64,000 nt of DNA, from assembly GCA_903900335.1 (NCBI GenBank), contig CAIUMP010000061.1, positions 1 through 64,000 on the forward strand, read 5' to 3'. The number at the start of each line of letters is the position of its first letter. Position 1 is the first letter of the stretch. The stretch comes from an uncultured Ignavibacteriota bacterium. GTDB taxonomy: Bacteria; Bacteroidota; Ignavibacteria; Palsa-1295. The position numbers were made by a program, and so were the translations under genes. Positions 1 through 58,666 of the stretch are shown piece after piece. The notes below the pieces were generated by a model. The model was not told the DNA's origin, searched no databases, and saw only the letters and a program-made list of their open reading frames with translations.

Positions 1-1837
1 ACGGCGGATTCCCCACAATCGCATCGAACCCACCTCGCTGCATGACCTCCTTGAATGCTGACTGGAAGCTGAAGGGCTTGATGCGCTTTTCTTCGGCGTC
101 GGTTAGCGGGAAGAGATCGGCAATATCGTACTCGACGAGGGAGTTACCGCAGACGATGTTCTTCGAGAGATCGGGTAGAATTTTGGTGCGCTCGAATGTG
201 AGCTGGCTCGCCCCGGCTCCGCTTTCGGATTCGAGAAATTTGAGGAAGAGCGAAAGCTGCGCGACCTCCACGGCCTGCGGGTCAATATCGACGCCATAGA
301 TATTATCGAGGAGAATCTGCTGCTTCTGTTTGAGCGATAGCGCATAGACTCCCTTGTCCAGCGTGATACATCCGGCCTTCTTTGCCTCGTCCGGGTGCTC
401 GTTGTACCAGGACTCGACATGATGCAGCACGGTGTCATACACTGCAATGAGGAATGAGCCGCTGCCGCAGGCGATGTCAGCGAAGCGGAGTTTGGAGACT
501 TCTTTTGGTGCGAGACCCATGCCTTTCGCGTCTTGCCCCACCTCGGTACGAGGAGGGGTCGGGGGTGGAGTCTCGATTGACGCGGTTTGTCCACCCCCCA
601 GCCCCCTCCTCGTGCCGAGGTGGGGGAGTTCGGGTCGGGCTGTGCCCTTCAGTATTTTGCCGACGGTATTCGCGACAATGTAATCCACAATATACTTCGG
701 CGTGTAATACACTCCACCCGCTTTGCGGACTTCGGGTTTGTACTCGATGTCCGCGCGCTTGGCTGTTGCGGTAACCACCTTACCAAGAAATCGCTCGTAG
801 ATCGAACCGAGCAACTCCACCGGAATGTAGCTGAATAAATACTTCGAGTTGTGATGGGAGATTTCCGAACAAATCTCCTGAAAGACTTTCTCATCCGGCG
901 GCGAGAACGAGGGTTTATCCACCTCGTGCGGTTTGAAGACGACGCCGTTGTATTTAACGTCAAGCTCTTTGCTCCATCCGATGAAAGATTTCCACGCGCC
1001 GCCTTTCTTCGCCGCTATTTGATCGACAATGTAATCGGATTCGATATTTCTATCTTCCAAGAATCGGATGAAGACGAGGCGATCAATTACTTTTTGCGTT
1101 GCTTCCGTGAGTGCTTCGGCATCCAGCGTTTCGTCCGATTTCTTGAATGCTTTGGCGAGTTTGCGGCGGTACTCTTCGAGATCATCGAGGAATTTGTCGT
1201 CAGTCGGTCGCGCCTCTTCCTGCGTGAGTTTCGCAGCTCCTTTGCCGCGCTGCTTCGGCTGCGCACCCGCAAACTCTTTCAGTTTTCCGGCCTCAACTGC
1301 CTCTCGCGAAAAAAGCCAGTATATGTCGGCGAATTTTTCGCGGTCGAGATACTCCTTGTAAGTAAAGATTTTGATTTGCGCCGACGGGTAACTCTTCGCA
1401 GTATGCGCCTGGTAGCGACAGTCGATAATATGAAATTCAGCGAAGCTAGTTAAGACGCCAATCGGTGTTTTGGCAGAATTTCCATAGCGAACAAGCTGAA
1501 AATAGTCTTCGGTGTTACCGAGATCGCGTGAAGGCTTCTTCGCCTCGGCAAAGAAGACGAAAGTCTTGTAATCAGGCTTGATGTGGAACGCATAATCCGC
1601 GCGGCGACCGGACGAGTTGCTGTCCGGGTTCTTCTCGACCTTGACTTCCTGCTCGCGCGGGTTCGTCTGCTGGCGGTGGTGGACATCCCACCCGAGCGCG
1701 ATAAAGAACTTGTCGATGAAGTCCGTGCGCACTTCGGACTCCTGATATTTTGGCAAGAGATACTCCGCTTCGTGCTCCGCGAAGAGGTGGACTAATTCGG
1801 AGACCTTCTCGAATGCGGCGTCGAATGTTGTGGGCAC
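1..1837 (-). CDS. Eco57I-like (type IIG-like) restriction enzyme / N6-adenine DNA methyltransferase, truncated by the window edge
   Basis: Manual minus-strand translation from GTG at 1837 is open to base 1: MPTTFDAAFEKVSELVHLFAEHEAEYLLPKYQESEVRTDFIDKFFIALGWDVHHRQQTNPREQEV...YYTPKYIVDYIVANTVGKIL...FADIACGSGSF...YGVDIDPQAVEVAQLSLFLKFL...FDAIVGNPP. It has motif I (ACGSGSF) and motif IV (NPP[Y]). It is absent from the ORF track because the stop lies outside the window. Confidence 0.93.
   Translation of the reverse strand, partial: MPTTFDAAFEKVSELVHLFAEHEAEYLLPKYQESEVRTDFIDKFFIALGWDVHHRQQTNPREQEVKVEKNPDSNSSGRRADYAFHIKPDYKTFVFFAEAKKPSRDLGNTEDYFQLVRYGNSAKTPIGVLTSFAEFHIIDCRYQAHTAKSYPSAQIKIFTYKEYLDREKFADIYWLFSREAVEAGKLKEFAGAQPKQRGKGAAKLTQEEARPTDDKFLDDLEEYRRKLAKAFKKSDETLDAEALTEATQKVIDRLVFIRFLEDRNIESDYIVDQIAAKKGGAWKSFIGWSKELDVKYNGVVFKPHEVDKPSFSPPDEKVFQEICSEISHHNSKYLFSYIPVELLGSIYERFLGKVVTATAKRADIEYKPEVRKAGGVYYTPKYIVDYIVANTVGKILKGTARPELPHLGTRRGLGGGQTASIETPPPTPPRTEVGQDAKGMGLAPKEVSKLRFADIACGSGSFLIAVYDTVLHHVESWYNEHPDEAKKAGCITLDKGVYALSLKQKQQILLDNIYGVDIDPQAVEVAQLSLFLKFLESESGAGASQLTFERTKILPDLSKNIVCGNSLVEYDIADLFPLTDAEEKRIKPFSFQSAFKEVMQRGGFDAIVGNPP
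536..626. repeat. Palindromic element (imperfect inverted repeat of about 33 bp arms) inside the methyltransferase CDS
   Basis: CCCCACCTCGGTACGAGGAGGGGTCGGGGGTGG ... CCACCCCCCAGCCCCCTCCTCGTGCCGAGGTGGGG; the arms are near-perfect reverse complements. Confidence 0.85.
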
Positions 1838-34978: not shown

Positions 34979-35046
34979 CGGGAAGCAGGCGCTTCCCTCC
35001 CACACAACACGGCCTCTCTGTGTGGGAGGGAAGCGCCTGCTTCCCG
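34979..35046. repeat. Perfect 28-bp inverted repeat whose arms are themselves palindromic
   Basis: CGGGAAGCAGGCGCTTCCCTCCCACACA - 12 nt - TGTGTGGGAGGGAAGCGCCTGCTTCCCG. Confidence 0.95.
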
Positions 35047-45792: not shown

Positions 45793-45905
45793 TCCCCGTG
45801 TAGCACAGACTTTAGTCTGTGACCCCAACCTTCCCCCGTGTAGCACAGACTTTAGTCTGTGACCCCAACCTTCCCCCGTGTAGCACAGACTTTAGTCTGT
45901 GACCC
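45793..45905. repeat. Three 40-bp direct repeats, each carrying CACAGACT-TT-AGTCTGTG (third copy partial)
   Basis: tagcacagactttagtctgtgacccc at 45801, 45841 and 45881: exact 40-bp period. Confidence 0.95.
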
Positions 45906-45964
45906 GATGCGCAGAAAGCACGCGCTGGGCCCGCTGAAGGGTCCGCGCTACACGGGCGACCATC

Positions 45965-46448: not shown

Positions 46449-46621
46449 GGCATCTGTAAATGATTAAAGTGAGCAATACAGAGCATCGGCCTCCGACCAG
46501 AGTACCGACTCGACGACAAGCGACAAGCGACAAGCGACAAGCGACAGAGAAAGAAACTCGAACTAAGAAAATTAGTTTCCGGCCGGCGGTGAATTGAACG
46601 TACCGTAATTCCCAATTTGTC

Positions 46622-46641
46622 ATTCCCGCAACAGCGGGAAT
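46622..46641. repeat. REP-like palindrome ATTCCCGC-AACA-GCGGGAAT
   Basis: gtcATTCCCGCaacaGCGGGAATcca. Confidence 0.7.
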
Positions 46642-46827
46642 CCAACCCGCTCGGAAGTGATTGTAAACACGATGGTACGCTTTTGCATGGGAATGCAAGG
46701 AAATGTAAGTATTTGAAAGGTTTTGCAAGCCACCTTCGGGATGTGGGAAGGGTTTTATTATTGCGCGGTAACGACAGTAGCGCTTGAAGCCACAACAGTA
46801 GTTATACAATAAACCTAACCGAAGAAC

Positions 46828-58565: not shown

Positions 58566-58582
58566 AAAACACCATACACCTG

Positions 58583-58606
58583 TCATTCCCGCGAACGCGG
58601 GAATCC
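58583..58606. repeat. REP-like palindrome ATTCCCGCG-AA-CGCGGGAAT
   Basis: tgtcATTCCCGCGaaCGCGGGAATcca. Confidence 0.75.
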
Positions 58607-58666
58607 AGACCCAAGACCCTCGACGAAGTCACAATATTTATTAGCAAGCACAGAAGTACTCCCTCA

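Follow-up and report, generated by a model that had tools for sequence, protein, structure and literature searches.

An in-frame palindrome within a type IIG restriction-methyltransferase gene consists of two copies of a hairpin unit, specific to one genus, that also brackets DUF559 genes

Results

A type IIG gene with a palindrome ahead of motif I

Contig C61, whose first 64 kb make up the window (by which we mean the whole stretch of DNA analysed), belongs to a draft genome of 4.0 Mb and 62 contigs, and the contig start cuts a minus-strand gene (2..1837) for a type IIG restriction-methyltransferase of the Eco57I/MmeI-like kind. The first 612 codons fall within the window, and the others are found on C34 (L138), another contig of this genome. 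The start of C34 repeats the same ~137 bases as this end of C61 and carries the frame on for 450 codons that include the catalytic NPPF motif, and thus we conclude that the gene is open throughout. Pfam matches to Eco57I (1.3e-16), MmeI_Mtase (8.6e-13) and HSDR_N were accompanied by a PADLOC assignment to REase_MTase_IIG (3.1e-128), the first matched stretch of which stops at residue 404, and by Foldseek matches to DrdV, BrxX/PglX, BpuSI and MmeI. An N-terminal nuclease-like region is therefore combined with an Eco57I/MmeI methylase in which DIACGSGSF (motif I) and NPPF (motif IV) are both found; motif I (DIACGSGSFLI, 446..478, minus strand, coordinates derived from residue numbers 454-464) is intact and follows shortly after the insert described below. 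The type IIG enzymes DrdV, BpuSI and MmeI belong to the same family as the host protein, which differs from them in having a palindrome-encoded loop ahead of motif I.

The palindrome occupies positions 529..632 and, as evidenced by folding, homologue comparison and matches to a repeat model, is a MITE-like, heads-out dimer of a hairpin unit, here called R1, that is read in frame. The first unit (529..572, plus strand) is a diverged copy scoring 49.4 bits, whose gene strand encodes ETPPPTPPRTEVGQ, while the second (589..632, minus strand) encodes ELPHLGTRRGLGGGQ and is the best-scoring copy in the genome at 69.9 bits; the hairpin heads point outward, and the inward-facing G-rich tails are separated by a 16-nt spacer (573..588). 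The region folds at -44 kcal/mol as DNA (z = -6.9) and at -77.7 kcal/mol as mRNA (z = -6.8), a level reached by 0/200 shuffles, and its arm pattern occurs twice in the window against 0.00 occurrences expected by chance. The initial annotation, which had placed a palindromic element in frame within an Eco57I-type gene, is borne out by these results with slightly altered dimensions, the extra residues numbering ~43 instead of ~45 and the element measuring ~104 bp by the unit model instead of ~91 bp. Beyond that reading, the element pairs two copies of a ~44-nt hairpin unit that is specific to the genus, and it is one of many.

Alignment with homologues, which the initial annotation had suggested together with a genome search and structure prediction, identifies these residues as an insertion. 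Eleven homologues from several phyla (46-54% identity) span the site, and 10 of them run NTVGKLI-xGK-TP directly into motif I, whereas the window protein has ~43 extra residues between NTVGK and motif I by our own count on the homologue alignment. The site is also empty in a genus relative, G006 (L135), which reads ILEGKNPDEVSKLRF; the one homologue of the 11 with an insert (L050) has a different one from that of the window. In an AlphaFold model built from a 15-sequence alignment (mean pLDDT 76), residues 401-438 (codons at 524..637, minus strand) are the sole long stretch below 50 and form a disordered loop beside the folded core, between a helix at 381-397 and the motif I strand at 452-455. 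The simplest reading for the host enzyme, as modelled, is a tolerated, disordered Pro/Gly-rich loop, and the enzyme most likely still works with the insert. Inactivation, which had been raised as one outcome, is unlikely: the frame is intact onto C34, the model puts the insert in a disordered loop next to the folded core, and other inserts are found at this very position in orthologues.

The R1 family and its insertions in genes

The R1 unit of ~44 nt reads CTCCCCCACCTC-n(4-6)-GAGGAGGGGG-CTGGGGGGTGGA, in which an imperfect hairpin CCCCCACCTC(n)GAGGAGGGGG is followed by a G-rich tail GGGGGGTGGA. Compensatory changes are seen at the innermost stem pair (G-C/C-G/U-A = 11/8/8); the covariation score, from copies that include related ones, is 0.153, compared with 0.038 when shuffled and at most 0.060 when slid. 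The unit consensus, CGnACTCCCCCACCTC..GAGGAGGGGGCTGGGGGGTGGA, bears no CGTC tag at either end, and R1 has no GTAG tag. Matches to a covariance model, mostly inside genes, number 36 in the window's own genome and between 11 and 124 in each of the six other genus members; the family is present in 7/7 genus genomes and, at E <= 1e-8, in 1/142 other genomes of the class.

Long ORFs (150 codons or more, of which no fewer than 40 flank the unit on either side; ORFs, not curated gene calls) contained 57 of 75 R1 units, some of which share ancestry, compared with 75.1% for random positions at the same loci (Fisher p = 1). This random level implies that the family does not avoid coding sequence. Inserts were found in 13 genes, mostly in variable linkers, including rlmB, ubiE, kbl, xseA and mazG; further hosts are miaB, a glycosyltransferase and an amidohydrolase with two units, and hosts in relatives, named by eye from motifs, look like ispE, queA, tsaD, dnaG and cas1. 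The ubiE insert sits just before motif I, as in the methyltransferase. From species to species within the genus, orthologues have or lack inserts at the same linkers (rlmB, ubiE, kbl, xseA, mazG and others), and the insert positions align with gaps in the solved homologues of rlmB, kbl and ubiE. Insert sites lie at low conservation (median percentile 0.055 over 11 genes), a measure that is partly circular because relatives have their own inserts there. At clean sites the net length gain was 27 nt (kbl, rlmB) or 30 nt (kbl of G003), which is below the unit length and suggests that insertion replaced or lost target bases, or that later trimming occurred; no target-site duplication was evident in these empty-site comparisons.

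In-frame R1 units measure 42, 44, 45, 47 and 54 nt, so that an intrinsic unit length of 3n is rejected as the means of keeping frame, and we attribute frame-keeping to selection. Frame use is uneven, with 19, 8 and 0 copies in the three same-strand frames and 3, 17 and 6 in those of the other strand (chi-square 32.9, 53 copies), and the two dominant frames probably reflect selection for soluble peptides. A selfish peptide encoded in a single frame was rejected, as the 53 copies use 5/6 frames and the second unit of the window uses the sixth. We do not claim six-frame openness as a special adaptation, given that a quarter of same-composition shuffles are equally open. Other palindromic or AT-rich repeats are in frame at the linkers of miaB, xseA and mazG (L006, L144-L149, L162-L167), and at one linker of xseA the genus has several repeat families that are unrelated to each other.

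Other palindromes at the methyltransferase linker

Palindromes unrelated to R1 occupy the same methyltransferase linker in relatives. An in-frame palindrome of the GGAAGCGCTGCTTCC (GGAAGC) family is found there in G001 and in a G006 paralogue (z -8.6 and -6.4), a third palindrome in G003 (z -8.1), and none in the G006 gene L135. Yet another (z -5.0) is present in L050, from a Bacteroidota MAG; as a repeat in its own genome this insert was rejected, since only one copy was found although it is palindromic. At three loci (G001:C6, G001:C2 and G006:C7), copies of the GGAAGC family also stand on both sides of a Y1 transposase gene, and at least one family invading this linker is thus RAYT-linked. 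A second palindromic in-frame insert (z -7.5) lies near query residue 281 in the G003 orthologue of the methyltransferase (L134).

Further repeats were noted in the window. A near-perfect 68-bp palindrome at 34979-35046 (CGGGAAGCAGGCGCTTCCCTCCCACACA...), with no long ORF across it, resembles the GGAAGC family; three tandem 40-nt repeats with CACAGACTTTAGTCTGTG lie at 45794-45913; and two copies of a short palindromic repeat, TGTCATTCCCGC..GCGGGAATCCA, lie at 46618-46644 and 58581-58607.

DUF559 genes bracketed by R1 units

Among the loci analysed, R1 pairs that lie close together with heads outward have gaps of two sizes, 16-37 nt (8 pairs, that of the window included) and 402-436 nt (4 pairs). 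Each of the four wide-gap pairs encloses a DUF559 gene (G000, G003, G005 and G006; PF04480 down to 3e-34), in a search for DUF559 genes that covered these four of the seven genus genomes. The R1 ends of the close pairs have the same orientation as in the longer, DUF559-coding element, and the window pair, with its 16-nt spacer, is arranged as a MITE derived from that element would be. The DUF559 loci of G005 and G006, both beside cas1, are probably one ancestral insertion, and the genus association rests on four loci. The cas1-like gene in these two genomes (L089 1396-2476 and L084 1379-2453) contains an in-frame R1 pair, with the DUF559 element directly downstream. At L009/L012 (G000:C61:66223-66712), a recQ-like frame runs through an R1 unit into DUF559, a possible fusion.

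Outside the genus we compared the left flank of DUF559 genes with the reverse complement of the right flank in plasmids and IMG/VR contigs; the viral-contig scan yielded three loci with the genus DUF559 alignment and 80 with a wider alignment. Strong inverted hairpin flanks were present at 21/31 non-redundant loci with at least 45% identity to the query, at 4/17 with 39-44% identity and at 0/28 below 39%, compared with 0/600 random control segments drawn from three of the same replicons and the window (Fisher 5e-32 and 9e-9). About a third of the close homologues have no hairpin flanks. The flanked group includes Pseudanabaena, Deinococcus, Azospirillum, Sphingomonas, Sphingobium, Qipengyuania and Sinorhizobium, and many of the flank arms consist, as in R1, of a C-rich hairpin followed by a G-rich tail toward the gene. 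The S. meliloti flank unit is dispersed over 1361 places in 338 plasmid records, with no match in E. coli genomes, and may correspond to the known RIME repeats.

The DUF559 protein (model pLDDT 85) has a Vsr-like endonuclease fold with invariant acidic and His residues of the EDxHD kind (E22, D51, E62, D64, H68 and D77). The model aligned with 3hrl at a TM of 0.71 and with I-Bth0305I at 0.64-0.65, Vsr being further off, and a PDB profile search gave 3hrl at 1.9e-35 and I-Bth0305I at 0.002. The predicted fold is thus apparently shared with the homing endonuclease I-Bth0305I, from which the system differs in that the DUF559 gene is not in an intron but is hairpin-bracketed and at dispersed positions; its nuclease activity is a prediction.

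Discussion

In-frame palindromes are usually presented as a Rickettsia peculiarity. The Rickettsia palindromic elements (RPEs) are dispersed, lie in frame in unrelated protein genes and are tolerated in linkers (PMC10969869); besides Rickettsia, in-frame palindromes are known from Opitutus and others in the form of intragenic REPs (PMC10969869, PMC3733652) and from the Cod-2 family (PMC2267715). The R1 inverted repeat likewise encodes an in-frame peptide inside genes, and the comparison with RPEs drawn in the initial annotation holds for the phenomenon. R1 is nevertheless not an RPE: it has no sequence link to them and no CGTC end tag of the kind described for R. conorii RPEs (PMC3733652), its unit is shorter, and it forms a genus-limited family in a different bacterium that is linked to DUF559 genes. 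With REPs and REPINs it shares a short imperfect hairpin with a tail, occurring as singlets and inverted dimers. Most REPs are intergenic, intragenic ones being reported in some species (PMC3733652), whereas R1 is not mostly intergenic, lacks GTAG and has no consistent RAYT neighbour, DUF559 standing there instead. R1 pairs resemble MITEs in being short and non-autonomous, with ends as in a longer coding element, but differ from them in that there is no classical transposase and no target-site duplication is evident.

To our knowledge, no mobilising enzyme has been identified for GC-rich hairpin repeats without a GTAG tag. Nor is one known for CGTC REPs (PMC3733652). We consider it reasonably probable that the palindrome is a small non-autonomous mobile element, that R1 forms the ends of a DUF559 element which the DUF559 protein moves through cutting and repair, and that the host enzyme most likely works. 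The full element would comprise two heads-outward units, 402-436 nt apart, around a DUF559 gene for a putative Vsr/EDxHD-type endonuclease related to I-Bth0305I. This protein would recognise the hairpin ends or their target and cut the DNA, and repair would copy hairpin-ended DNA into the break. The full element would be autonomous, with close pairs, that of the window included, and single units as its non-autonomous derivatives, and it is probably the autonomous partner of the window insertion. In the host gene, two inverted ~44-nt units would have entered the linker just upstream of the SAM-binding motif, and such insertions would last wherever they preserve the reading frame and fall in a linker that accommodates additional residues. 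What the data show is the unit family with its geometry and hairpin covariation, the in-frame insertions opposite empty sites in orthologues, the bracketing of DUF559 within the genus and outside it, and the DUF559 fold; we infer the causal role of DUF559 in R1 mobility, the copying mechanism and the retained activity of the host enzyme.

Of the rivals, two are strongest: Y1 transposases could mobilise the units in trans, or DUF559 could have invaded pre-existing pairs. That R1 is a REP-type family moved in trans by a Y1 tyrosine transposase (RAYT), with DUF559 as a passenger, gains from the presence of Y1 transposases in 7/7 genus genomes (5-11 each), from the REPIN-like geometry of R1 dimers and from the GGAAGCGCTGCTTCC family, which brackets Y1 genes at three loci and occupies the methyltransferase linker in G001 and the G006 paralogue. 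We nonetheless regard it as unlikely: a search of 32 Y1 loci placed strong R1 units within 1.5 kb at L212 only, where they lie in a neighbouring gene, with a weak match at L204, and R1 has no GTAG tag and brackets DUF559. A Y1 transposase as a linked mobiliser of R1 was accordingly rejected, no linkage being found in the window's own and the genus genomes. About equally doubtful is that DUF559 is a homing-endonuclease gene that invaded the spacer of pre-existing palindrome pairs and has no role in hairpin spread. I-Bth0305I, a homing endonuclease, is the closest characterised fold, insertion into a spacer would also produce the two-class gap distribution, and insertion sequences that target REPs are a known precedent (PMC1525189); hairpins of like architecture bracket the gene in distant bacteria, however, and targets of one kind would then have had to be invaded again and again.

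Two further explanations carry less weight. A hairpin kept for an mRNA-level effect, slowing translation or lowering restriction-enzyme expression, would fit the very stable fold of the transcript (-77.7 kcal/mol) but is improbable when R1 units occur in both orientations, many frames and unrelated genes, and when relatives have other palindromes or none at the site. Least credible of all is an assembly or binning artefact: the draft genome has 62 contigs and the host gene does lie at the end of one of them, yet the insert is more than 500 bp from that end, the break is a clean ~137-bp overlap with C34, and palindromes occur at the same linker in independent genomes.

The R1 family is new, as are the absence of any avoidance of genes, the entry of different palindrome families into one linker time and again, and the bracketing of DUF559, and the link between DUF559 and hairpins appears to be so: our search of the open-access literature, with subscription journals and preprints outside its scope, found no paper linking DUF559 to palindromic repeats. 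We put at about even the chance of an undescribed, broad class of mobile element in which a single DUF559 gene, Vsr/homing-endonuclease-like, is bracketed by inverted hairpin-plus-tail units, and whose non-autonomous pairs and single units would explain many GC-rich palindromic repeats that are common in bacteria, in-frame copies within core genes among them. Another bacterial genus is here seen to have in-frame palindromes across core genes, one in which the rewriting of protein linkers by mobile DNA can be followed. The association with DUF559 provides a specific and testable candidate mobiliser for one large class of GC-rich hairpin repeats, and suggests a role for a domain that is still annotated as of unknown function.
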